From positions 1 through 64,000 of the forward strand of contig NZ_CP030128.1 of assembly GCF_003568845.1 (NCBI RefSeq): 64,000 nt of DNA. The letters run 5' to 3'. Made by a program: the position numbers and the translations under genes. Origin of the DNA: Indioceanicola profundi. GTDB lineage: Bacteria; Pseudomonadota; Alphaproteobacteria; Azospirillales; Azospirillaceae. This document shows positions 6,592 to 23,488 of the stretch, in pieces. Under the pieces are notes generated by a model. That model did not search any database, was not told where the DNA came from, and saw only the letters and a list, made by a program, of their open reading frames with translations. Within the stretch, counting starts at the first letter, position 1. Each line of letters begins with the position of its first letter.

Positions 6592-8324
6592 GGTTCTCCC
6601 GCAATTTGTGTGGAGGGATGAGCATCAGACGGCTTGGAGGACGCGGCTGCGGAGCAACTGGAAACCACCCCGGCCGTACATGGTGCGCTTGATCAGCTTC
6701 AGCCTGTTGATCTGCCCTTCGACCGGACTGGTGGACCAGGGTTCACTGATTGCTGCCTCCACTGCTTCCCTGTCCTTTGCCAATCCGGAGGCGAACGCCT
6801 TCAACGGTGTCGTGGTCGCTGCGTCCAACCATGACCCAAGTGCCTCGGCCGTCTCCTTGCGCAGGATAGCTGCCAGCCGGCGAACCAGATCCACGCTGCA
6901 GGCCAGGGCTGGCGCCAAGTTCTGCAGGCGCGTGACGAACTGGCGATCAGCATCAGTGAGGGTAGTAACGTCACTCTGGAGCAGGCGGGCGGTGCGCCTG
7001 GGAGACGGCTGTTTCCAACCAACGATCAGGGGAGCAGCAAGATTATTTGGCGGACCAGCCGCCGCTAACCGGGTTTTGATCCAGGACTGCAATGTAGTGC
7101 GTGGAACAGAGCAGCCGCGGGCCGCCAGTTCCTGCTGGAGAACGGAAATTCGACGGCATCCAACATCCCAGCGCTGCTGCAGGTAGACGGCCTGGGCATC
7201 CAAGGTGCTTCCGGTGCGACGCTTGCTCCAGGACGGCGCCTCCTCCAGGTTCAGCCAAGCCCGAACAGTTTTTCGGTCCATGCCGAGCGTGCGCGCCATG
7301 GCGCTGATGCTGGCACCGGTCTGCTGCAGCTTGACCAGGTCCACATGACGGCTCTGCCGAACTTCGTGCTTCGCTGCCCGTTGCGTCAGGGTGGCGGACG
7401 GTAAAGGCGCTTTCTCCGGCTCCGCCGGCACGGTGGGCGCGAGGGTTGCAACCGTCTCCCGGGCGGCCTGGCGCAAAGCGGCAGCGTTCTGGCCCAACAC
7501 GGTCTCGAGGGCATGGCCGAGATTGCGCAGCAGATGCCAGCGATCAGCAACGTGGGTTGCCGCCGGAGCGCCTTGCCGGACGCCACTGCCATAAACCTCG
7601 GCCCGGTCGCGGGCGACCATGTGAATGGCTGGATGCTCGTGCAGCCACTTTGCTACGCTGTCCGGGTTCCGGTCGGGGAGGAGATCGACGATGCGATTGC
7701 GCTCCAGATCGACAATGATGGTGCCGTAGCGGCGGCCTTTGCGCCAAGCCCACTCGTCGATGCCGATGATCTTTGGCGCGGGCGGTGCTGGAAGCGGTGC
7801 AGTGCAGACCATGCGGATCAGCGTGTCTGGGCTGGCCGGGATAGAGAGGCGTTTGGTCATTCGGCTGCCAGCCTCACCGCCCAAGGCGAGGCCAAGATGC
7901 TGCTGAATGTCGGCCAGCCGCTCAGACCGGCGGGCAAAGGGGCGGGCAACGTCCGGCATTGGCTCGGCAAAGGTCCGACGTGGACAGCCCTGATTGCGGC
8001 AGGCCAAACGGCGAACCTCCACCTTCAGCTGGACCGGCCGGCCCTGCCACGGCAGATCGGCCAGGGTTCGATGGTAACGGCCATGGATGCTGGTGGAGAC
8101 GGCTCCGCAGCCTGGGCAGCAGGCCGGATCAGTGATGACGGATGCGGTCAGGATGATGATGCGGTCGGGCTCAGGCCGGATTTGCACAGCCTTCAGCGCC
8201 GCCGGGATAAGGGTCGGCAGGGGTTTGGGCACGGTTCACAATGTGGATACGGGCGTTGTTCCTGCTATGTGCTTTCCGAACAAGCCCATTCCCAGGTGCC
8301 TCCACACAAAGTGCGGGAGAGCCA
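6591..8324 (-). mobile_element. Complete ISL3-family insertion sequence
   Basis: An element of about 1.73 kb bounded by near-perfect 26-bp inverted repeats. The left end at 6591-6616 reads TGGTTCTCCCGCAATTTGTG, and the right end (8299-8324, complement) reads TGGCTCTCCCGCACTTTGTG; 24 of 26 positions match. It encloses one full-length transposase gene. No exact 8-bp target duplication was found: the left flank ends CGAAATC and the right begins AATCCATT. Flanks have therefore been rearranged, consistent with different IS fragments on each side. Confidence 0.85.
6625..8232 (-). CDS. ISL3-family transposase
   Basis: Full-length 535-residue transposase. An N-terminal zinc-finger-like region (CCPGCG about residue 38, then [11 protein letters not shown] about 78) is followed by an HTH segment and the DDE core beginning [12 protein letters not shown] (about 160). 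The conserved C-terminal [20 protein letters not shown] motif is intact. It fills its element between the two inverted repeats and has no visible frameshift, so it may be active. Confidence 0.92.
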
Positions 8325-8574: not shown

Positions 8575-9021
8575 CATCACCGAATCTGCGGAAGAGCCCA
8601 GTTTCACATGTCGCCTGAAAGGCCCAGAGCAGATGCCAGCGCAGGCCCGGAATCGCCTGTCGGTTCGGCCAACAACGCGGCAAATTGCCCTATTACATGA
8701 TGGCGGGAAGTCGGTCATCAACAGGCCTGTCCCGCCGAGCTCCCCCACCCGATCCGTTTGCGACCCAGAGACGTGGGCCTGTAGGCGCGCGCCACCTGCG
8801 GTAAACGGATTTGACCAGAGACCGTCTAAATAAAAAAAACCTTACCTTTGCAGGGGTTAAAAACCTGTTACCGTTCCATGAAGATCAGGTGTGAGAACGC
8901 AAGGGTTGGTCCCCGCGCTCAAAAAAATGATCGTTGTGGGAATAGCTAGGATTGCGGGAGTCCGCCGGTCCATTCCAAGGCAAGGTCAACCTGCCGAATG
9001 ACATGGAGAAGGCTGCCTAGA
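8575..9021 (+). promoter_or_regulatory. Non-coding stretch upstream of the mau cluster
   Basis: No convincing gene is seen here. The 3' half turns AT-rich (8828-8870) and contains CTTACCTTTGCAGGGGTTAA around 8838-8857, which resembles CTTACCTACAGGGGTAGGG about 30 bp beyond mauN. The promoter of the cytochrome c/mau operon probably lies between here and 9000, but no confident -35/-10 pair can be named. Confidence 0.35.
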
Positions 9022-9390
9022 ATGATGCGCTCTTCCCTTTTCATTTTGATGCTTAGTACTGCTTGTTGGACTGCATCTCCTGTCTTCGCACAGGAGCCAT
9101 CACCTCCGAAGGCATGGTCCGGTTGCGCCTCGTGCCATTCCTTGAAGCCGGGCGAAAACAAGGCCGGACCGAGCCTGCATGGCGTCGTTGGGCGTCAGGC
9201 TGGCAGCCTGGAGGGCTTCAATTTTTCCCCAGCTATGAGGGACTCCGGGATTACCTGGGATGACGCATCGCTCGACGCCTTTCTGACAAACCCGCGCAAG
9301 CACATTCCTGGAAACAGGATGTTCTTCGGCGGAGTGTCAAGCGAGGCGCAGCGCAAAGAACTTATTGGCTTTCTGAAAGCGCATAACTGA
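9022..9390 (+). CDS. Small periplasmic c-type cytochrome heading the mau cluster
   Basis: A class I cytochrome c of about 122 residues with a Sec signal peptide (MMRSSLFILMLS to VFAQ), one haem-binding CASCHS motif and a likely axial Met in GNRMFFGG. An upstream in-frame ATG at 8998 is possible; 9022 is chosen because it starts cleanly with the signal peptide. It precedes mauF in the same direction. Since the cluster has no amicyanin gene, this cytochrome is a candidate electron acceptor for methylamine dehydrogenase or its redox partner; that role is inferred from position. Confidence 0.85.
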   Translation: MMRSSLFILMLSTACWTASPVFAQEPSPPKAWSGCASCHSLKPGENKAGPSLHGVVGRQAGSLEGFNFSPAMRDSGITWDDASLDAFLTNPRKHIPGNRMFFGGVSSEAQRKELIGFLKAHN

Positions 9391-9517: not shown

Positions 9518-10393
9518 GTGACGTTACACTCCACTGAGTTGCTGGATGGAATTGGGCCTGACGCGACGCCCGATCCCAAACTTCGTTCCGCGCCCAAGGT
9601 TCGCATCGAAGATCGCGACATTTTCCCAACGGAATCCCGTGCCACGTCGCGTGCACTGGCTGCATTGAGCGGTATTGGGATCGGTGCCACCGCCGGCGCC
9701 GTATCCGGCGCGCTCGACACGTCGAGCGGAATGATTCCTGCTCTTGCAGGGCTTGCCTTTATCGGCGGGCTGCTTTCGACTTGGTCGCCCTGCGGCTATT
9801 CCTCGCTTAGCCTGCTGAGGCCGCGCGGGTCCTACAGCGCCCGTTCCATCGCCGGATGGACGCCCACCTTCCTCATGCATGCGCTCGGCTATGCGGCAGG
9901 CGCCCTGCTCCTTGGAGCAATGCTGGGCGGGGCGGCGCTGATGCTTCCGGTATCGCCGGATGCGGGCTGGGTGCCCATTGCACTCGGATTGCTGGCCCTG
10001 GGCTACGGGCTGCATCAGCTCAAGTTCTTCAGCTTGCCCTATCCCCAGCGGCGGGCCCAGGTGCCGCATGATGCGCGGGCTAGATTCTCGCTTCCTATGG
10101 TCGGCCTGCTCTACGGCTTTTCCCTGGGTTTGAACTTCCTCACCTATGTAAGGACTCCCATCCTTTATGTGACTGTTGCCGGCGCGCTGCTGAGCGGCTC
10201 ATTCACTTCAGCCATGATCCTGACCGCTGCCCTCAACGTGGGACGGTTCCTTCCCCTGATCGTCAATGCTTTCCCGGTCCAGGACTGGACGATTCAGCGC
10301 TGGCTCGCCGGCACGGAAACCAGGGCAGTGCTGGCAGACGGCTTTGTTCTTGCCCTGGCGGGCTCGGCATTTGCCGCCGCGGCCCTGGCCTGA
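9518..10393 (+). CDS. mauF: Methylamine utilization protein MauF
   Basis: Polytopic inner-membrane protein (291 residues, six to seven hydrophobic segments) required in known mau systems for making methylamine dehydrogenase. It resembles CcdA/DsbD-type membrane proteins: LSTWSPCGYSS near residue 87 is a CcdA-like first-helix motif. The start is a GTG at 9518 preceded by AAAAAGGGAGGG. Its place directly before mauB matches the conserved mauFBEDA order. Confidence 0.87.
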   Translation: MTLHSTELLDGIGPDATPDPKLRSAPKVRIEDRDIFPTESRATSRALAALSGIGIGATAGAVSGALDTSSGMIPALAGLAFIGGLLSTWSPCGYSSLSLLRPRGSYSARSIAGWTPTFLMHALGYAAGALLLGAMLGGAALMLPVSPDAGWVPIALGLLALGYGLHQLKFFSLPYPQRRAQVPHDARARFSLPMVGLLYGFSLGLNFLTYVRTPILYVTVAGALLSGSFTSAMILTAALNVGRFLPLIVNAFPVQDWTIQRWLAGTETRAVLADGFVLALAGSAFAAAALA

Positions 10394-10435
10394 GGCCATA
10401 AAAGCTCAAATCAAATCCAACGGGAGGAAACAGTG

Positions 10436-11698
10436 ATGCGTCGAGCAAACGTCGCCACAGAACGCCCGAAGTCCAGTCGGCTTGGCACGCTCCTTTGTGC
10501 CACGGCATTGATCGGCCTCGTGGCCATTCCGTTCTCGGCTTCGGCCCAGAACCAGACACAAAGTCAGGCTGGCAAACAGTCCGGCACGGACATCCCGACC
10601 CATGTTACCGAAGAAGCCACCGTTGTCCCCGAAGAAGAGACCGGGATCCTGGAAGCCCCGGCTCACAATCCCCGCCGGGTCTATGTGGCCGACCAGGATA
10701 ACTTCAACGTCATCAACCGGATCTATGCGATCGATGGCGAACAGGGCAAGCTCCTGGGCATGCTGGATGGTGGCATGCTGGTCAACGTCAATCTCATGCC
10801 AGATGATGGCCGCATCGTCGTGAGTAATACGCTGTTCGAGCGCGTCTCGCGCGGTGCCCGCAACGACTTCATCGAGATCTGGGACCCAAAAACTCTCAGC
10901 GTGACGCAGGAAATCGACATTCCGGAAGAGCGCTTCTTGCTCATGCCCATGGATGCCATGTCCCAGATCACGCCCGATGGACAGTTCCTGCTCTATTACC
11001 GTTTCTCTCCGGCCCCAGGGGTCGGCATCGTGGACCTGCAGAATAACAAGCACATCACGACAGTCGATGTGCCAGACTGCTATTTTGTCATGCCCACAGC
11101 GCCGGATCGCTTTTACATGCATTGCCGGGGCGGTTCCCTGCTGAAGGTGGCCTTCACCCGTGACGGCGAGACAAAGACCACAGAGAGCAAACCCTTTCAT
11201 CCGCCGGAGCAGCATATCTACGACCACCCGCTGTTCTCGGCCAAAACCGGCAAGGCGTATTTCATCTCCTATGATGGAACGGTTTACCCGGCTGATCTCA
11301 GCGGTGAGGATCCCCAATTCGGCCAAAGCTGGTCCATGTTCTCGGATCAGGAGCGGCAGGAGAATTGGCGGCCCGGCGGATGGCAGGTGGCCGCTTATCA
11401 TACGCCAACCAATCAGATCTACGTGCTGGTCCGGCAGGGCGGCGAGTTCACGCACGCTAATCCCAGTAAGGAAGTCTGGGTTTACGATGCGAATAATGGC
11501 AAGCGCCTCAAGAAAATTCCGCTTGAGAATAGCACGAATTCCATTGCGATCAGCCAGGACCAAAATCCGCTCCTCTTCGCGTTGGATACCCACCATTCCA
11601 CGCTGGAAATTTATGATACAGGCACCGGCCAGCGCCGGTCCTCGATCCCAAATTTAGGCGTCACGCCGCATATTGTCGTGACCTCTTCTGGATCGTGA
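10436..11698 (+). CDS. mauB: Methylamine dehydrogenase heavy (alpha) subunit
   Basis: Large subunit of the periplasmic alpha2-beta2 enzyme that oxidises methylamine to formaldehyde and ammonia. The 420-residue precursor has a signal peptide ending SASAQN (about residue 39) and a seven-bladed beta-propeller body with repeated strands such as RVYVADQDNFNVINRIYAID and EVWVYDANNGKRLKKI. A GGGAGGA site lies 8 nt before the ATG at 10436; a GTG sits one codon earlier. The short linker to mauE and the strict order FBEDA leave little doubt. Confidence 0.96.
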   Translation: MRRANVATERPKSSRLGTLLCATALIGLVAIPFSASAQNQTQSQAGKQSGTDIPTHVTEEATVVPEEETGILEAPAHNPRRVYVADQDNFNVINRIYAIDGEQGKLLGMLDGGMLVNVNLMPDDGRIVVSNTLFERVSRGARNDFIEIWDPKTLSVTQEIDIPEERFLLMPMDAMSQITPDGQFLLYYRFSPAPGVGIVDLQNNKHITTVDVPDCYFVMPTAPDRFYMHCRGGSLLKVAFTRDGETKTTESKPFHPPEQHIYDHPLFSAKTGKAYFISYDGTVYPADLSGEDPQFGQSWSMFSDQERQENWRPGGWQVAAYHTPTNQIYVLVRQGGEFTHANPSKEVWVYDANNGKRLKKIPLENSTNSIAISQDQNPLLFALDTHHSTLEIYDTGTGQRRSSIPNLGVTPHIVVTSSGS

Positions 11699-11708
11699 GG
11701 GAACTGCC

Positions 11709-12287
11709 ATGACCTATCTCCACGATCCAACCCTCGTGGTCTACGGGCAGGTTCTCCTGGCCCTTGTTTTCAGCGTTGCGGGTGCGCAAAAGCTCCGCCA
11801 GCGTGAGGAATTTGTCGGTATCGTCCGTAACTTCCGGATTCTGCCACCCCGTGTTGCCGAGCCTGCAGCCAGACTTCTGCCCTTTGCCGAACTCGCGCTT
11901 GCAGCAGCCTTGCTTGTTCCTACTCTTCTGCAGGTGACAGGCGGGGTAGCCTTTTTGCTGCTTGCCATCTTCAGCCTGGCCGTGGCCGTCAATCTTGTCC
12001 GTGGCCGCCAGAACATCGATTGCGGCTGCTTCCGCACCGGGGCCGGCCAGCATCTGAGCTGGTGGATGGTGGCACGGAACCTCGGGCTGATGGGTCTGGC
12101 CCTGCTCCTGGCCACAAAGCCGGCTACCGCGGCCGCACCTGGTCTGCTGGACCTCATAACGGCCAGCCTCGCAGCGGCCGTGACCGCCCTCCTCTATGTC
12201 GCGGCGACACAGATCCGTGTAGCCGCCTCGCTTATCCCCGCCGCTGCGCACGCGCATGCCCACCATCACGAGGTCAAATCATCATGA
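11709..12287 (+). CDS. mauE: Methylamine utilization protein MauE
   Basis: Inner-membrane protein (192 residues, four to five hydrophobic helices) of the DoxX/MauE group, needed with MauD for correct disulfides and stability of the small subunit. A Cys-containing stretch QNIDCGCFRTG (about residue 102) is typical of MauE. A His-rich C-terminus (HAHAHHHE) is present. The stop overlaps the mauD start (ATGA at 12284), so the two are translationally coupled. Confidence 0.93.
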   Translation: MTYLHDPTLVVYGQVLLALVFSVAGAQKLRQREEFVGIVRNFRILPPRVAEPAARLLPFAELALAAALLVPTLLQVTGGVAFLLLAIFSLAVAVNLVRGRQNIDCGCFRTGAGQHLSWWMVARNLGLMGLALLLATKPATAAAPGLLDLITASLAAAVTALLYVAATQIRVAASLIPAAAHAHAHHHEVKSS

Positions 12288-12919
12288 TCGAAGCTCTCAT
12301 CATCTCCAATGTGCTGCTCTGGATCGGTCTGGTGGCGAGCATCGTGCTGCTCATCGGCCTGGCGCGCCAAATCGGTCTGCTACATGAGCGCTCCGCCCCG
12401 TTGGGCGCCATGATGACGGACAAGGGTCCCGATGTTGGGGATGCCGCCCCCGCCTTCACGCTAAAGGACCAGAATGAGCGGGCCGTCTCCATCGGCGGTG
12501 TGCAGGCCAGCGGAATGGATCAGCTTCTGCTGTTCGTCTCCCCGACCTGCCCGATGTGCGAGAAGCTGCTGCCGGTGGCGAAGTCGCTGGTTCGGGACGA
12601 AAAGCTGCGCTTGGTCCTGATCAGCGATGGAGATCCGGCAGACCATGAGCGCTACCTGAAAAGCCACGATCTCACTGGCATTCCCTACGTCCGGTCGGCC
12701 GAAGTCGGAATGCGCTATCAGGTCGGCCGCGTCCCGCACGCCGTCATTATCGACGGGGACGGCATCATTCGCTCGAAAGGCCTGGTCAACACCCGCGAGC
12801 ATCTGGAGAGCCTGGTTGAATCCCGCAGGACCGGCCATGCCTCCATTCAGGCTTTCCTGCGCAGCACCGGCCAGATGCCGACGCCGAAGGTCGAGCCAGA
12901 GGCTCAGCTTCTCCACTGA
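12284..12919 (+). CDS. mauD: Methylamine dehydrogenase accessory thiol protein MauD
   Basis: Membrane-anchored thioredoxin-like protein (211 residues) that helps form or isomerise the six or more disulfides of MauA. An N-terminal anchor helix (about 8-28) is followed by a thioredoxin fold with the active motif SPTCPMCEKL (CPMC, about residue 90) and the cis-Pro segment GRVPHAVIID. It overlaps the end of mauE by 4 nt and precedes mauA by 34 bp. Confidence 0.94.
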   Translation: MIEALIISNVLLWIGLVASIVLLIGLARQIGLLHERSAPLGAMMTDKGPDVGDAAPAFTLKDQNERAVSIGGVQASGMDQLLLFVSPTCPMCEKLLPVAKSLVRDEKLRLVLISDGDPADHERYLKSHDLTGIPYVRSAEVGMRYQVGRVPHAVIIDGDGIIRSKGLVNTREHLESLVESRRTGHASIQAFLRSTGQMPTPKVEPEAQLLH

Positions 12920-12953
12920 CCACGGATAAAACCAAGATAAGGGAGGTATGGGA

Positions 12954-13493
12954 ATGCTGTTCAAAACACGGTTCGACGCGCTGGTCGAGGGCGTGACCCG
13001 ACATGTGGCGCAACGCACTTCACGAAGGGGCTTCCTCGGCAGGATTGGAGTCATCGTGGGTGGAGCCACGGTGCTGCCCCTGCTGCCGGTGGACCGGCGC
13101 GGAATGAAACAGGCGCACGCCACCATGCCGGACGGCGGCTGGCAGCCACAGGCAACCGACGCCCAGGCTTGCGATTACTGGCGGCACTGCTCGCTGGACG
13201 GCAACGTCTGCGACTGCTGCGGCGGAACGATGACACAATGCCCGCCAGGAACATCCCTTTCCCCAAGCTCTTGGGTGGCAAGCTGCTTCAATCCCGAGGA
13301 CAAGGTAACCTACCTGATTGCCTATCGGGATTGTTGCGGCAAGTCATTCTGCGGGCGTTGCGGCTGCTTCAACACCCAAGGCGAGCTGCCGATCTATCGG
13401 CCCGAATTCAGCAACGACATCATCTGGTGCTTTGGTGCCGAGGGGATGACCTATCACTGCACGATTTCCCCGATCGTTGGGAAAGCCGCGTGA
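12954..13493 (+). CDS. mauA: Methylamine dehydrogenase light (beta) subunit, TTQ-bearing
   Basis: Catalytic small subunit carrying tryptophan tryptophylquinone. With the start at 12954 (GGGAGG 7 nt upstream; an ATG at 12948 is too close) it has 179 residues. A Tat signal TSRRGFLGRIG is near residue 22. The two TTQ tryptophans are Trp107 (SWVASC) and Trp158 (IIWCFG), 51 residues apart as in characterised MADH. The catalytic acids correspond to Asp82 and Asp126 (YRDCCG). The mature part has 14 Cys rather than the usual 12: the extra ones are Cys89 (CDCCGG) and Cys133 (SFCGRC). Two residues are missing after FGAE relative to the Paracoccus and Methylobacterium sequences as I remember them. Confidence 0.96.
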   Translation: MLFKTRFDALVEGVTRHVAQRTSRRGFLGRIGVIVGGATVLPLLPVDRRGMKQAHATMPDGGWQPQATDAQACDYWRHCSLDGNVCDCCGGTMTQCPPGTSLSPSSWVASCFNPEDKVTYLIAYRDCCGKSFCGRCGCFNTQGELPIYRPEFSNDIIWCFGAEGMTYHCTISPIVGKAA

Positions 13494-13553: not shown

Positions 13554-14483
13554 ATGTGGATTCCACATAATGCGATACCACCGCTTCGCGGGGACTCTTC
13601 GCCAGACATGGTGCGCGCCTCGCGGGAGGATCGCGCGGAGCGCGAATTCCTGGTGGCTGTTTACCTGCTGAACCCGCTGACCCGCGCTTGGGACATCGAC
13701 CTCCTGCTGGAGGCTGAATTCAGTATCGCCGCCCCAGGTGGAGCAGAAATCCAGATTGCCGCGGCGAATGGCGCAAACGGGCGCCTGGGAGAGCTGATCT
13801 GCCGAAGCCAAGCTGCTAGTGCCGAAGCTGCCGTCGAGCTGGTCTATGACGCGGTGGCCGATCTGCTTGGCCGATGGTGCGTTACCCATGGTCGCGGGAT
13901 GGAAATCGCCGGCCTGCGCGTGGCCGACATGGTTCATCAGGCAAAATGGCGTGCCGTTCCGTTCCGCCCTAGCACGATTGATGCCACAGCGGATATCGGC
14001 GATGGCCTCACGGCAGAACATCGCGCCCTGGCTGCCCTCTACCGGCAGGCCCGCAATGCCTCCAGCCCAATCCAGCGCCTGCTCTGCGCAATGCGGATTC
14101 TGGACAGCTTTGCAGCAGGGCAGCGCCATCTGAAATCTCTGCCAACGGGCAGCTGCACCCATAACATGTTTGATAACTGCTCCGGCTTTCGCGTGAGCCG
14201 GGAAATGCTGGTCCTCTCCGGAGCCTGGAGCCGCCATGCCGACCTGGAGGGACAGGATCTTCATGTTCTGATCCAGACATTACAGCCTGTGCGCACCCGC
14301 CTGCTAGGCATGCTGGCGGGGGAGGCACTTGACACGGACATCGGAACCTACAGCTGGCTTTTCCAACTGAGCGGGCTGGCAAATCTGGCTGATTGTGCGG
14401 CGCACCAAATACTCAGTGGCGATTTTGCGCTTTGGCGTCAGTCACGTTCATCAGATTATTATGATATGGAGGAAGTTGTTTAG
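13554..14483 (+). CDS. mauJ: Methylamine utilization protein MauJ
   Basis: A 309-residue soluble protein with no signal peptide, placed after mauA as in other mau clusters, where mauC normally lies between them. The function of MauJ is unknown. Identification rests on position and overall resemblance (hydrophilic, about 300 aa, C-terminal DYYDMEEVV). The start at 13554 has no good ribosome site, and an internal ATG at 13611 (MVRASREDR) could be used. It is not needed for methylamine growth in some methylotrophs, so its presence without mauC is notable. Confidence 0.65.
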   Translation: MWIPHNAIPPLRGDSSPDMVRASREDRAEREFLVAVYLLNPLTRAWDIDLLLEAEFSIAAPGGAEIQIAAANGANGRLGELICRSQAASAEAAVELVYDAVADLLGRWCVTHGRGMEIAGLRVADMVHQAKWRAVPFRPSTIDATADIGDGLTAEHRALAALYRQARNASSPIQRLLCAMRILDSFAAGQRHLKSLPTGSCTHNMFDNCSGFRVSREMLVLSGAWSRHADLEGQDLHVLIQTLQPVRTRLLGMLAGEALDTDIGTYSWLFQLSGLANLADCAAHQILSGDFALWRQSRSSDYYDMEEVV

Positions 14484-14540
14484 AGGGCATGAGTCAACGG
14501 ACCAGCATCGGCAGTGGAGGGGCTAATACCGGAGGTCATC

Positions 14541-15674
14541 ATGAGTGAAATCATCCTCGCCAAGTCCGCTCCACCCGCCTACGTGAGCCGACCTTCTGTT
14601 CTGGATCGGCGTCCCGGCCAGTTTCCGTCCGGGAACCGTCGCCAGGCACTCCAGCCCGGCAGCAGGATCCTGGGCACGGCCACAGATGGGTTCAAATCCT
14701 TCACCAAAAGCTTTGGCGAAGACCCCGAGAACATCGTCGACAGAGTTGGCGTGCCGGTGCAGCTCTTGGACAACCCGTCAATCATGCTCGAACTAAACTC
14801 CTTCTGCGCCCTGTTTGAAGAGGCCGCCCGACGTACCCGGCACAGCAATTACGGCTTATGGTTCGGACACCAGTTCGACCCAATCCGGCTGGGGCCGATT
14901 GGCGAAACCATCATGTCGGCCCCGACCGTCCGGGCGGCAATGACCAACTTAGTTGAGTTCTATTTGTATTTCCAACAGGCCAGTACCGTGCGGCTGGTGC
15001 GCGAGGACGGCCTGTTGCGTCTTGAATACAAAATCCTGGACGGCCGCATCCTCGAACGCCGCCAGGATGCCGAACTGACCATGGGCATTTTTGCCAATCT
15101 GTTCTGGCGGACCATCGGATCAAACTGGCGGCTTGAGGAGGTCCAGTTCGAGCACCCGCACCCCGAGGCCTCGAAAGAGCATGAGGCTGCATTCCGGGCT
15201 CCGGTGTACTTCGAGCAGCGAACCAACGCGCTTGTGTTCCGCGACCATGGCCTCGATGCGCCGATGCCCGGTGCGGATCTCATGCGAATGGTGACGGCGC
15301 GCCAGAAACTGCTTGGTACCTTCGATACCGTCGGTGCTGTGGATGTACTGGATATTCTCACATCCGAACTGATGAGCCGCCTGCCCCAGGGGGTCCCTAA
15401 GCTGGAGGAAATTGCAACAGGCACTGGTATTGCCGTTGCGAAGTTCCGGCATGGGCTCGACTATAAGGGCCTGACCTACACAGCCTTCGTGAACGACCTG
15501 CGCAAGCGTCTGGCGAGCAGGTATCTGGGCTTGCAGTATCTTTCCATGAATGAGGTGTCCATGCTGCTCGGCTTCACGGAAGCAAGCGCGTTCAGCCGTG
15601 CCTGCCGCGGGTGGTTCAATGCCTCGCCACGCATGTTGCGGGCCGGCATCCTGCTGTCTCTGGCGAAATCCTGA
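14541..15674 (+). CDS. AraC-family transcriptional regulator inside the mau cluster
   Basis: A 377-residue regulator: an N-terminal Arabinose_bd-type ligand domain (PF12625-like, about residues 60-240) and a C-terminal AraC helix-turn-helix (about 280-375) containing LASRYLGLQYLSMNEVSMLLGFTE-type helices and the FSRACRGWF signature. The ATG at 14541 has GGAGG 5 nt upstream, and is preferred to a GTG at 14514. It lies between mauJ and mauG on the same strand. Known mau clusters are controlled by the LysR-type MauR, which is absent here, so this gene may be the methylamine sensor; that is inference. Confidence 0.85.
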   Translation: MSEIILAKSAPPAYVSRPSVLDRRPGQFPSGNRRQALQPGSRILGTATDGFKSFTKSFGEDPENIVDRVGVPVQLLDNPSIMLELNSFCALFEEAARRTRHSNYGLWFGHQFDPIRLGPIGETIMSAPTVRAAMTNLVEFYLYFQQASTVRLVREDGLLRLEYKILDGRILERRQDAELTMGIFANLFWRTIGSNWRLEEVQFEHPHPEASKEHEAAFRAPVYFEQRTNALVFRDHGLDAPMPGADLMRMVTARQKLLGTFDTVGAVDVLDILTSELMSRLPQGVPKLEEIATGTGIAVAKFRHGLDYKGLTYTAFVNDLRKRLASRYLGLQYLSMNEVSMLLGFTEASAFSRACRGWFNASPRMLRAGILLSLAKS

Positions 15675-15756: not shown

Positions 15757-16785
15757 GTGCGGAAATGGATGATGTGCCTTTTCCTGGCCGGCCTTGCTGC
15801 TCACACATTTGGTGGGGCAGCGGCCCAGCCGCAGGAGGCAACCGGTAGCTTGGCGGAGTTGAAAGCAAAATTCAAAAGACCGGACGCGATTCCATCCCGG
15901 CGGGACAATCCGTTGAGCCCTGAGAAAGCGGCGCTTGGAAAGGTTCTGTTCTTTGATCCGCGCCTGTCGGCGTCCGGAACGGTTTCCTGCAGCCGCTGCC
16001 ACGATCCCGCATTGGGATGGCAGGATGAATTCGCCAAGGCCGTTGGCCATGAGGGAGCAATCGGCAGGCGACGCTCTCCGCCGGTGGCGAATCTGGCCTG
16101 GGCGTCCGCTTTCATGTGGGATGGACGCGCAGAAGATCTGGAAACCCAAGCTGCATTGCCGATCGCAGCGCCAGAGGAGATGAATATGGATCCGGCGCAG
16201 CTGCCTGAGGTCCTGGACAGTATTCCCGGATACGCGCCCTTGTTCGAGGCCGCCTATGGCGACCCCGCCATCACAACGGACCGGATTTTGGCGGCTCTGG
16301 CCACCTTTGTCCGCACCATCGTATCGGACGAGGCACCCTTCGACCGCTGGATAGCTGGTGAGAAGACTGCAATATCGGATGAGGCCAAGCGCGGCTTCAT
16401 TTTGTTTAACACCAAGGCCCGCTGCGCAAAATGCCATAGCGGCTGGCGCTTCACCGATGACAGCTTTCACGATATCGGCATTTCCCGGGGGGATCTCGGA
16501 CGGGGAGCCTTTGTCCCGCCCGAAATAGAGGTGCTGCAGCACGCCTTCAAAACGCCAGGCCTGCGCGATGTCTCCCGGCGTCAGCATCTGATGCATGACG
16601 GATCGCTGGTCAGCCTTGGCGCGGCCATTGACCACTATGTGAATGGAACGGAGCCGCGCCCCAGCCTCTCGCCCGAGTTCCAGCGCATCCAGTTGGACGC
16701 CAGCGAGCGGGCGGACTTGATTGCCTTTCTGCAAACCCTGACGGCCCCCTTGTCCGAATTGAGGGCGCCCGAACTGCCCCACTAG
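15757..16785 (+). CDS. mauG: Di-haem TTQ maturase MauG
   Basis: Periplasmic di-haem protein of the cytochrome c peroxidase family that completes TTQ synthesis on MauA by six-electron oxidation. The 342-residue precursor has a signal peptide (about 1-22), the first haem motif CSRCHD (about residue 81) and the second CAKCHSG (about 226), followed by the FKTPGLRDV segment typical of the family. The GTG start at 15757 follows a G-rich ribosome site. The sixth ligand of the second haem (Tyr in Paracoccus MauG) cannot be assigned by eye; a Met is present in LMHDGS. Context (mauG-L-M-N) supports MauG over an ordinary peroxidase. Confidence 0.9.
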   Translation: MRKWMMCLFLAGLAAHTFGGAAAQPQEATGSLAELKAKFKRPDAIPSRRDNPLSPEKAALGKVLFFDPRLSASGTVSCSRCHDPALGWQDEFAKAVGHEGAIGRRRSPPVANLAWASAFMWDGRAEDLETQAALPIAAPEEMNMDPAQLPEVLDSIPGYAPLFEAAYGDPAITTDRILAALATFVRTIVSDEAPFDRWIAGEKTAISDEAKRGFILFNTKARCAKCHSGWRFTDDSFHDIGISRGDLGRGAFVPPEIEVLQHAFKTPGLRDVSRRQHLMHDGSLVSLGAAIDHYVNGTEPRPSLSPEFQRIQLDASERADLIAFLQTLTAPLSELRAPELPH

Positions 16786-16840: not shown

Positions 16841-17200
16841 ATGCGAGCAATATGGGTAGGTGCTGCAACCACTCTGATGATCGTTGCCATCGGTGCGCCA
16901 GCCTGGACCTTTGCACGAGACGTCGTCATCTCGATCCAGGAACGTGAGCTGCCCGACCGGATCACAGTGGATGCCGGAAGTAAGCTCGTCATCGTCAATG
17001 AGGATGAGGTTTTCCATAGCCTCTTTTCGGATACGACTGGCCACAAATTCAATATGGGCACGCAACTGCCCGGCCAGACCAAATCCGTTGCCCTCGACAC
17101 CCCAGGGGACCTTCAAGTCCGCTGCTGGATTCACCCTTCCATCAGAATGGACGTGCATGTCCAGGACGGAACGAGGGACTTGACTGATGGGCAACCATAA
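16841..17200 (+). CDS. mauL: MauL, cupredoxin-like periplasmic protein
   Basis: A 119-residue protein with a Sec signal peptide (MRAIWVGAATTLMIV to TFA, about residue 25) and a small beta-sandwich. A complete type-1 copper ligand set is visible: His59 (VFHS), Cys95, His98 and Met103 in RCWIHPSIRM, with spacing C-x2-H-x4-M as in plastocyanin. The start at 16841 has GGAGG 5 nt upstream; an ATG one codon earlier is too close. The gene overlaps mauM by 14 nt. MauL has no settled function. In a cluster lacking amicyanin it could carry electrons from MADH, or deliver copper; both are inference. Confidence 0.82.
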   Translation: MRAIWVGAATTLMIVAIGAPAWTFARDVVISIQERELPDRITVDAGSKLVIVNEDEVFHSLFSDTTGHKFNMGTQLPGQTKSVALDTPGDLQVRCWIHPSIRMDVHVQDGTRDLTDGQP

Positions 17201-17870
17201 TCCCAAGCCACGCGCTAAAGGAACTGTGAGCCGCCGGGACTTCATCGCCGGCGCTGCAAAGTCGGCGGGCGGCGTCTGTGCTGCTGGCTTTGCGCTCAGC
17301 CTTTATGCGGAATCCGCAGGCTCTCAGCCGGTTCAGGCGCTGAGGCCGCCAGGTGCGATTGCGGAGGAGGATTTCCAGTCCGCCTGCGTGCGCTGCGGCC
17401 TCTGCGTCCGCGCCTGTCCCTATGACACACTGAAGCTGGCGGAATTCGGAGACGATGTGGCCTTGGGCACACCCTTTTTCGTTGCCCGGGACGTGCCTTG
17501 CTTCATGTGCCCGGACGTGCCTTGCGCCCGGGCTTGCCCCACCGGCGCCCTGGATGCGGAAATTCCATCCATCAAAGAGGCCACAATGGGAACAGCCGTT
17601 CTCAGTGACCATGAGAACTGCCTGAATTATCGCGGCATGCATTGCAGCGTCTGTCACCGTGTCTGCCCGATCCGGGACGAGGCCATTACGCTTGAAAAGC
17701 ACGTCATCAACGGTAAGCCGAGACTGATCCCGACAGTGCATTCTGATCACTGCACGGGATGTGGAAGGTGCGAGGAACAATGCGTACTCGCCGAAGCCGC
17801 GATCCGGGTCTACCCTGTCGACATCGCGCGCGGCTCGATCGGCGTTAACCGGGCAGGGCGCCGAATATGA
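17187..17870 (+). CDS. mauM: Ferredoxin-type protein MauM
   Basis: A 227-residue iron-sulfur protein related to NapG, with a Tat-type signal (VSRRDFIAGAAKSAGG) directing it across the membrane. Four cysteine clusters for [4Fe-4S] centres are visible: CVRCGLCVRACP, CPDVPCARACP, CSVCHRVCP and CTGCGRCEEQC. It overlaps mauL upstream and couples to mauN by an ATGA overlap at 17867. With MauN it probably forms a quinol-linked electron path, as NapG/NapH do. Confidence 0.92.
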   Translation: MGNHNPKPRAKGTVSRRDFIAGAAKSAGGVCAAGFALSLYAESAGSQPVQALRPPGAIAEEDFQSACVRCGLCVRACPYDTLKLAEFGDDVALGTPFFVARDVPCFMCPDVPCARACPTGALDAEIPSIKEATMGTAVLSDHENCLNYRGMHCSVCHRVCPIRDEAITLEKHVINGKPRLIPTVHSDHCTGCGRCEEQCVLAEAAIRVYPVDIARGSIGVNRAGRRI

Positions 17871-18799
17871 AACTCATCGATCTCGCGGGAGAGCCGAGGC
17901 GCGGCGCCATACGCTCCAAAGGCTGGCTGAAGGCTCATAAATACTGGCTTCTGCGGCGGACATCCCAGATTTCGCTGCTGCTGCTTTTCGCCATCGGCCC
18001 CTGGCTGGGCCTCTGGTTCGTCCAGGGAAATTTTGCCTCAAGCCGCGTCCTCGACAGCGTTCCCCTGAGTGACCCCTTTATTCTGCTGCAGTCCGCAATG
18101 GCAGGGCATGTGATGGCCACGGCCGCTCTGATCGGGGCTTTGGTTGTCGTTCTCTTCTATGCCTTTGTCGGGGGGCGGGTGTACTGCTCCTGGGTCTGTC
18201 CCGTCAATATCGTAACCGATACGGCCCACTGGCTACGGGAGCAGTTGGGCATCACGCGGGATCGCAAGCTGAACCGGAATGCCCGCCTCACCATCCTGGC
18301 GGCCGCCTTGGGTGCTTCCATGGTGACCGGCACCATCGCTTGGGAACTGGTCAACCCTGTCTCGGTCCTGCAACGCGGCATCATCTTCGGCATCGGCTTC
18401 GGCTGGGCGCTGATCGCTGCAATCTTCCTGCTTGATCTTTGCATCACGCGCCGGGGATGGTGCGGACATCTTTGCCCGGTCGGTGCTTTCTATGGGCTTC
18501 TGGGCGCCAAAAGCGTGATCCGCATATCCGCGAGGGGCCGACAGGGTTGCGAAAACTGTGGTGCCTGTCTTCGCGCCTGCCCTGAACCCCATGTAATTGC
18601 CCCTGCCTTGAAGGGCAATGTGCCGCTGGTATTGTCACGCGACTGTACGACCTGCGGCGGCTGCATTGATGCGTGTCCGAGCGACGTCTTCTCGCTAGCT
18701 ACACGGTTTCAAATTGCAAATCATGAAGGGGGCTGCAATGGCGAGACCAAAATGCACAGACAGGTCAGTGGCGACACTGCTTTAATCCAGCCGAAATAG
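17867..18799 (+). CDS. mauN: Membrane ferredoxin-type protein MauN
   Basis: A 310-residue NapH-like inner-membrane protein with four to five helices, the cytoplasm-facing CxxxCP motifs (SWVCPVN and CGHLCPVG), and two [4Fe-4S] motifs near the C-terminus (CENCGACLRACP and CTTCGGCIDACP). It is the last gene of the mau run, coupled by 4-nt overlap to mauM, and is followed by a terminator-like hairpin about 135 nt downstream. Confidence 0.92.
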   Translation: MKLIDLAGEPRRGAIRSKGWLKAHKYWLLRRTSQISLLLLFAIGPWLGLWFVQGNFASSRVLDSVPLSDPFILLQSAMAGHVMATAALIGALVVVLFYAFVGGRVYCSWVCPVNIVTDTAHWLREQLGITRDRKLNRNARLTILAAALGASMVTGTIAWELVNPVSVLQRGIIFGIGFGWALIAAIFLLDLCITRRGWCGHLCPVGAFYGLLGAKSVIRISARGRQGCENCGACLRACPEPHVIAPALKGNVPLVLSRDCTTCGGCIDACPSDVFSLATRFQIANHEGGCNGETKMHRQVSGDTALIQPK

Positions 18800-22644: not shown

Positions 22645-23488
22645 GGCTCTGTTGCATCGTTTTCGGCGGGACGGAGATCGCGTAGAACCTCGGCCGGTTC
22701 GGTGGCTAGGGTGACAAGGTGATGCGCGACGGGAAGGACCCATTCAAGGGCCGGCGGTTCACGGCGGGCGTGATCCTGTGGGCGGTGCGCTGGTACCTGC
22801 AATTCCCGATCAGCTACCGCGATCCCGAACGTATGCTGGCCGACCGCGGCGTGCCGGTCGATCACACGACACTCTACCGCTGGATCCAGGCTTACGCACC
22901 CGAACTGGACAAGCGCTTGCGCCCATACATCCGGATGAGCAGCGGTTCCTGGCGGGTGGACGAGACCTGCATTCGCGTGAAAGGCCGGTGGATGTACCTG
23001 TATCGCGCCGTCCATGCGCGCGGGCAGACGATCGACTTTCTGCTCAGCGCCAGGCGCGATGCTGCGGCTGCCCGGCGCTTCTTCCGCAAGGCGCTGAAGC
23101 AGGCGCATACGGTCAACCCGCGCACTATCACGGTGGACAAGAACGCCGCCTACCCAAGCGCGACCAAGACCATGAAGAGGGCCGGTGAGCTATGGCGCTT
23201 TGCCAAGCTGCGGCAACGCAAGTACCTGAACACCATCGTTGAACAGGACCACCGGCGCATCAAGCGGCTGGTCCGGCCCGGACTCGGGTTCAAAAGCTTC
23301 CATTCCGCCCGCCAGACCATCGCTGGCTACGAGATCATGGTCATGGTCCGCAAAGGCCAGGTCAGGGCTGTTCCCGCCAACGGCATGCCCATACAGGCGA
23401 CCTTCATTGCGAGCCTGTTCGGTGTCGCCGCCTGATGGCGCCGAAATCAAGGCTCCCAAGACCGACCGCCAGACTTCTTAACGGAGCC
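22645..23488 (+). mobile_element. Complete IS6-family insertion sequence
   Basis: About 844 bp. The left end GGCTCTGTTGCA at 22645-22656 is the standard IS6-family terminal repeat. At the right end the complement reads GGCTCCGTTAAG, ending at 23488, a diverged match. The single transposase frame occupies most of the element. No 8-bp target duplication is seen (TGCCATCC left, CATCGAAC right), so one end may have been rearranged. Confidence 0.8.
22719..23435 (+). CDS. IS6-family transposase
   Basis: A 238-residue DDE transposase of full family length: N-terminal HTH (YRDPERMLADRGVPVDHTTL), catalytic Asp in WRVDETCIRVKG, Asp in TVDKNAAYPS, and Glu in VEQDHRRIKRL. No frameshift is present. The start at 22719 is the likely ATG-ATG pair. 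It is of a different subgroup from the two IS6 remnants at 5417 and 36401. Confidence 0.93.
   Translation: MMRDGKDPFKGRRFTAGVILWAVRWYLQFPISYRDPERMLADRGVPVDHTTLYRWIQAYAPELDKRLRPYIRMSSGSWRVDETCIRVKGRWMYLYRAVHARGQTIDFLLSARRDAAAARRFFRKALKQAHTVNPRTITVDKNAAYPSATKTMKRAGELWRFAKLRQRKYLNTIVEQDHRRIKRLVRPGLGFKSFHSARQTIAGYEIMVMVRKGQVRAVPANGMPIQATFIASLFGVAA

Follow-up and report, generated by a model that had tools for sequence, protein, structure and literature searches.

Amicyanin, encoded by mauC, binds copper through His53, Cys92, His95 and Met98 (PMC12723479). P. denitrificans is reported to depend crucially on its mau genes when growing on methylamine (PMC4543880). Of the mau genes found in other clusters, mauL has so far had an unclear role: in the open-licence literature searched, one relevant paper names MauL, as an accessory protein (PMC2474590), and another gives it inside the name of a cluster (PMC4109929). 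The clusters of Methylophilaceae are listed as mauFBEDAGLMNO, a list that includes mauL and not mauC; in this family a small cytochrome whose gene lies within or next to the cluster is presumed to take up the electrons from methylamine dehydrogenase (MADH), and the few neighbours that are conserved include an AraC-type regulator (PMC4109929). With regard to copper sites that have no axial methionine, laccases with hydrophobic Ile or Leu axial residues hold type-1 copper, and the exchange of such a Leu for Met lowered the potential by 140 mV (PMC4220974).

The stretch of DNA analysed here (64,000 nucleotides of Indioceanicola profundi, hereafter the window) carries a mau cluster whose genes follow one another on the plus strand in this order:

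8998..9390, plus strand: small class I cytochrome c, separated from the downstream mauF by 127 bases (PF00034, 24.8 bits; over cut-off)
9518..10393, plus strand: mauF, homologous to the annotated MauF of three plasmid clusters (L042-L044)
10433..11698, plus strand: mauB, MADH heavy chain (PF06433 361 bits; TIGR02658 392 bits, under the cut-off of 454)
11709..12287, plus strand: mauE (PF07291 102 bits)
12284..12919, plus strand: mauD (TIGR02661 273 bits, over cut-off)
12948..13493, plus strand: mauA, MADH light chain (TIGR02659 301 bits, over cut-off)
13554..14483, plus strand: mauJ-like gene (PF17419 18 bits, under cut-off; same place as mauJ in L042-L044)
14514..15674, plus strand: AraC-type regulator (QhpR model 246.7 bits, cut-off 250)
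15757..16785, plus strand: mauG, diheme enzyme of TTQ formation, immediately before mauL (PF03150 183 bits; TIGR03791 398 bits, under the cut-off of 444)
16841..17200, plus strand: mauL, predicted exported cupredoxin of 119 residues (ORF; ten-member MauL alignment; AlphaFold model; VIA-align match to amicyanin with Z 12.0)
17187..17870, plus strand: mauM, NapG-type ferredoxin (TIGR00397 293 bits, over cut-off)
17867..18799, plus strand: mauN, NapH-type membrane ferredoxin (TIGR02163 350 bits and NF007013 394 bits, both over cut-off)

Thus, mauL lies directly after mauG and before mauM and mauN, and the first possible start of mauM overlaps its end by 14 bases. As the preliminary description of this DNA had implied, mauC is missing here: mauA and the mauJ-like gene are 60 bases apart, so that it does not lie between them. 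MauA clearly exceeds the cut-off of its MADH model, but MauB and MauG fall short of theirs; the enzyme may thus differ from an ordinary MADH, and its substrate may be other than methylamine. The regulator is of the AraC type and not a LysR-type MauR; QhpR, whose model it approaches, is named for quinohemoprotein amine dehydrogenase. A pattern search for regulator sites returned 119 matches against 152 expected. The cluster is flanked by transposase genes of the ISL3 and IS6 families (6628-8232, minus strand; 22719-23435, plus strand), and within the window's order (82 genomes) the light-chain family is matched in just five others, with mauF seen in none of them: the cluster may hence have been acquired.

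It had been proposed that MauL carries a complete type-1 copper ligand set, formed by His59, Cys95, His98 and Met103, and that the spacing of these residues is that of plastocyanin rather than that of amicyanin. All four residues are found at the positions claimed and the C-x2-H-x4-M spacing is present, the motif reading CWIHPSIRM. Their grouping is unlikely to be due to chance, as the pattern H-x25-45-C-x2-4-H-x2-4-M appeared in only 479 of 200,000 shuffles of residues 26-119, which were taken as the mature part. We then compared ten MauL proteins, which come from the window's class as far as their labels tell (L042 by name from Alphaproteobacteria). Here, His59, Cys95, Trp96, Ile97, His98, Pro99 and Ile101 are invariant, and the resulting Cys-Trp-Ile-His-Pro-x-Ile motif, a name coined in this analysis and not taken from a database, is present in the window protein. 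Conservation among homologues, the check put forward in the preliminary description, holds for the three equatorial ligands and breaks down for the fourth: residue 103 is Met in six of the ten (window, L042, L104, L105, L107 and L134) and Arg, Ala, Leu and Ser in L135, L136, L137 and L138, respectively. These four proteins form one clade with support 100/99, and no MauL outside it lacks Met103; this was probably a single loss with later drift, not four independent events. Judged by sequence, all ten MauL combine the His/Cys/His set and a hydrophobic axial residue. The codons concerned are:

17015..17017, plus strand: His59, predicted equatorial copper ligand, equivalent to amicyanin His53 (invariant in 10 of 10; aligned with the amicyanin His)
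17123..17125, plus strand: Cys95, predicted equatorial copper ligand, equivalent to amicyanin Cys92 (invariant in 10 of 10; aligned with the amicyanin Cys)
17126..17128, plus strand: Trp96, invariant in MauL, where all 13 amicyanins have Thr or Ser (alignments)
17132..17134, plus strand: His98, predicted equatorial copper ligand, equivalent to amicyanin His95 (invariant in 10 of 10; aligned with the amicyanin His)
17141..17143, plus strand: Ile101, at the position of the axial Met (all ten MauL have Ile here; the residue aligned with it is Met in all 13 amicyanins)
17147..17149, plus strand: Met103, the fourth ligand of the preliminary description, not conserved (Met in 6 of 10; otherwise Arg, Ala, Leu or Ser)

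The register of this region was analysed by profile and structural comparison. An AlphaFold model of MauL, with a nine-sequence MauL alignment as input, has a mean pLDDT of 82.8 and a pTM of 0.65 and shows a helix at the N terminus (2-18) and eight strands; Met103 lies within the final one (102-108). Its best match among solved structures is amicyanin 4p5r (VIA-align: Z 12.0, rmsd 2.1, 84 residues), with which plastocyanin 2plt is tied (Z 11.7); Foldseek likewise placed amicyanin first (1id2, E 8.6e-7), with its M98L and M98A mutants next. The predicted fold, together with the invariant His/Cys/His set, bears out the claim that MauL is a cupredoxin. Alignment of the MauL and amicyanin families by hhalign gave a probability of 97.9 and an E-value of 4.6e-13, and HMMER against solved structures gave a best E-value of 3.9e-7 for a P94F amicyanin entry and 1.6e-6 for wild-type amicyanin. 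In both alignments Cys-x2-His-Pro and the last strand are free of gaps and Ile101 falls upon amicyanin Met98: at this position, three residues on from the second His, all 13 amicyanins and none of the ten MauL have Met. The end points of the structural alignment are in agreement, given that residue 108 of the model pairs with amicyanin 105, an offset of three that Cys95/Cys92 and His98/His95 share. In the alignment with plastocyanin, the offset at the end and that at the Cys differ by two (from the ranges of the structural alignments and the plastocyanin numbering), as would be expected if the MauL loop is the shorter one, of amicyanin length. The C-x2-H-x4-M spacing thus arises because Met103 stands two residues past the axial position, and neither the complete ligand set nor the plastocyanin-type spacing can be upheld. 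Met103 as axial ligand, on a loop of the plastocyanin type that would exceed that of amicyanin by two residues, was considered and rejected: judging from the alignments and the model it would be in the wrong register, it is conserved in only six of ten proteins and it is predicted to lie inside strand 102-108.

General family models recognise MauL poorly. The window protein scores 17.0 bits against PF00127 (cut-off 21.2) and matched no NCBIfam family at E-values up to 1, including the amicyanin model TIGR02657, to which seven of the ten MauL show a weak match (best E 1.1e-4). It is the most divergent MauL, with 23-39% identity to the other nine, and a profile of these nine scores it at 59.5 bits (E 2.5e-19); next come a Ciceribacter cupredoxin (L096, 38.5 bits) and two amicyanin-like proteins (L118, 33.1; L114, 31.0), with the cluster amicyanins at 29.1 bits or less. 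In a tree of 28 cupredoxins (five extra rows uncounted), MauL and amicyanin form separate groups, each supported by 99/99, and the window protein is found, in no firm branching order with a Neorhizobium fragment (L095), at the base of the MauL side. As phmmer with the window protein scores this fragment (42 bits) about equally to the Methylobacterium MauL (40 bits), the assignment of the window protein to MauL rests also on gene order and motif. The fragment stems from a plasmid on which a mauG-like gene adjoins the MauL-like cupredoxin gene (L095:4724-6210), both broken across frames, and no MADH genes were seen within the 12.2-kb stretch; its tail, read in another frame, has Met at both +3 and +5, which from sequence again points away from the +5 Met as the ligand. 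On plasmid pLVM1 of Methylobacterium sp. DM1, mauL (L042:12112-12453) is an ORF without a gene entry in the PLSDB table.

In total, 22 MADH clusters including that of the window were examined: three from plasmids (L042-L044; 3 of 30 plasmid records with MauA were taken in), one from MauA family searches (L062), twelve from MauF searches of 31, 369 and 297 genomes (L097-L108) and five from MauL searches of 18, 103 and 20 genomes (L134-L138), the latter being MauL-positive by construction. Weak MauF matches (G891, G1446, G1428 and G1357; E 1.3e-5 to 9.1e-4) were left out, and most PF02975 matches, being TTQ dehydrogenase clusters with no mauF in view, were left out of the MauL counts; a MauA scan of genome contigs gave five loci, with mauF seen in none (L006 starts inside its cluster). 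L102 ends inside mauA, L103 ends 548 bases after mauG, and L137 starts inside mauB, so that no mauF is visible, and ends at the contig end. Within the mauF-less loci, the TTQ dehydrogenase light chains of four from one family (f202; L059, L060, L065, L066) score 218-230 bits to that of the window and those of the others 195 or less; no mauF or mauG was seen in these four.

MauL was found in ten clusters (window, L042, L104, L105, L107 and L134-L138), and in each of them mauL directly follows mauG. It was not found in L043, L044, L062, L097-L101, L103, L106 and L108, nor in the extensions L109-L111; mauG was not seen in L101 and L106. The genes mauM and mauN accompany nine of the ten MauL clusters (L137 ends too early); in seven they come directly after mauL, and in L136 and L138 they lie at another place in the stretch, on the opposite strand. 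Conversely, MauL was not found in the eight clusters without visible mauM/mauN (L062, L097-L101, L103, L108), nor in three where they are present (L043, L044 and L106, the last of which has mauC as well and no mauG that was seen). Amicyanin is encoded in 13 clusters: L042-L044, L101 (a divergent form), L104-L107 and L134-L138. This places it in nine of the ten MauL-positive clusters, or in four of five when those found through MauL are set aside. The eight clusters without amicyanin are the window, L062, L097-L100, L103 and L108, and only the window has MauL; L062 and L097-L100 are genomes of one genus (g330) and not independent, making up five of the seven in which neither protein was found. 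As a separate observation, three loci of family f15 (L120:1-1812, L121:1423-1818, L122:706-1197) encode amicyanin-like proteins with another residue in place of the copper Cys (motif DTLHSTM), and in L120 and L122 these genes adjoin amicyanin-like genes with an intact motif.

The suggestion that MauL replaces amicyanin in this cluster fares badly against these counts, and as a general rule it is ruled out by co-occurrence. For the window cluster itself we consider it unlikely that MauL acts as the electron acceptor of MADH. The missing mauC, the amicyanin-like fold of the model and the Methylophilaceae gene list with mauL and without mauC (PMC4109929) all speak for such a role, as does the own genome: across its four contigs (completeness 98.86) an amicyanin query returned no match, a weak negative that had no known positive as control, and four of its five PF00127 matches are by eye multicopper-oxidase-like (L002, L003) or copper-type proteins rich in His and Met (L001, L005), the fifth being a short frame of 54 residues (L004). 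However, amicyanin is encoded beside MauL in nine of ten clusters, MauL was not found in seven of the eight amicyanin-less ones (five of the seven from one genus, and L103 ending shortly after mauG), and a cytochrome c gene stands beside mauF. This cytochrome (8998-9390) is the more likely acceptor in the window cluster and the better candidate because the layout resembles that of Methylophilaceae clusters, where a small cytochrome is assumed to take this part (PMC4109929). Homologues of it occur in four of 38 TTQ dehydrogenase/MADH loci besides the window: in L057 and L058, two genomes of the window's family, and in L063 the gene adjoins the heavy-chain gene on the same strand, and in L056 it is 2.7 kb away from it. 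Amongst the other amicyanin-less clusters, a small cytochrome c is encoded between mauJ and mauG in L103 and L108, and a CXXCH-bearing protein after mauG in L097-L100 and L062.

On balance we favour the explanation that MauL is an exported, Met-less cupredoxin, likely to bind copper, that acts as an accessory of MADH maturation together with MauG and not as a substitute for amicyanin, the acceptor in the window being the cytochrome c. From the computed fold, conservation, axial position, gene order and co-occurrence we infer copper binding, potential, partners and role as follows. MauL would be a paralogue of amicyanin that keeps His59, Cys95 and His98 and has Ile101 in place of the axial Met; most likely it binds copper as a trigonal type-1 site of rather high potential and passes single electrons in the periplasm in support of MADH maturation with MauG, possibly being fed by MauM/MauN. 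Copper binding is plausible by analogy with laccases, given that three equatorial ligands and a hydrophobic axial residue are present, and the amicyanin scaffold itself appears to hold copper after replacement of Met98, since among the top structural matches the M98L and M98K entries are titled "oxidized" and the M98A and M98Q entries "Cu(II)". It is improbable that MauL has ceased to bind copper and that its conserved motif now serves structure or docking: the axial Met is gone in all ten proteins and the window protein stays below the PF00127 cut-off, as this would predict, but the three equatorial ligands are invariant in spite of the low identity of the other nine to the window MauL. A maturation role is suggested by the position of mauL after mauG in ten of ten clusters and by co-occurrence. 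That MauL instead serves as a copper chaperone or loading factor for amicyanin seems very doubtful to us; amicyanin in nine of ten MauL clusters and an axial vacancy that could ease release of the metal would suit this function, but MauL is present without amicyanin in the window and, by gene list, in Methylophilaceae (PMC4109929), and L043, L044 and L106 have amicyanin with MauL not found.

More tentatively, and with rather low expectation, MauL could be the missing redox partner of MauG: a high-potential protein at the end of a quinol-fed chain from MauN (NapH-like) via MauM (NapG-like) to MauL, which would supply or remove single electrons during the building of TTQ, with the invariant Trp96 beside Cys95 as the electron exit or even itself oxidised by MauG. 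Such a partnership would account for MauL tracking mauG, mauM and mauN rather than a lack of amicyanin. In M. extorquens AM1, mauL insertions reportedly abolished growth on methylamine although amicyanin was present, and mauM and mauN insertions are said not to have done so. If so, the role of MauL there differs from that of amicyanin and the link to MauM/MauN is not essential; growth of the mauM and mauN mutants would speak against an essential MauN-MauM-MauL chain. Returning to the accessory role that we favour, the Paracoccus clusters L043 and L044, which have mauM/mauN and in which MauL was not found, argue against a general requirement, given the reported importance of the mau genes to P. 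denitrificans on methylamine (PMC4543880): as Paracoccus manages without mauL, MauL is not generally needed and any role must be lineage-bound. L106, with mauC and mauM/mauN but with neither MauL nor mauG seen, is a further case of this kind.

Reading MauL as a Met-less relative of amicyanin makes a mau gene of unclear role concretely testable, by its blue-copper spectrum, its potential and TTQ formation, and separates two questions that had been merged, namely the job of MauL and the replacement of amicyanin in clusters without mauC. Amongst known systems, amicyanin is closest: it shares with MauL the cupredoxin fold, the His...Cys-x2-His-Pro arrangement and common gene clusters, and is its best structural and profile match. 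The two differ in the axial position (Met in each of the 13 amicyanins, Ile in all ten MauL), in the residues between Cys and His (Thr/Ser-Pro, or Ser-Ile in L101, versus Trp-Ile), in gene position (between mauA and mauJ versus after mauG) and in their separate groups in the tree. The Methylobacterium MauL (L042) has the same place after mauG and the same CWIHPxIRM motif as the window protein, but is only 31% identical to it and its own cluster also encodes amicyanin. Two His, one Cys and a hydrophobic axial residue, as predicted for MauL, are likewise found in the laccase type-1 site (PMC4220974). Laccases are, however, multicopper oxidases, and the comparison is by analogy only. The purple cupredoxin of Nitrosopumilus (5fc9) is, like MauL, a single-domain cupredoxin and matches the model with Z 11.4 and rmsd 2.3 over 82 residues. 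Its copper site is an open one, and this protein is not known to be linked to methylamine. CorA/MopE, finally, resembles MauL in being a copper protein encoded with a diheme protein of the MauG family, but its ligands are two His, a water and a kynurenine (PMC3912023).
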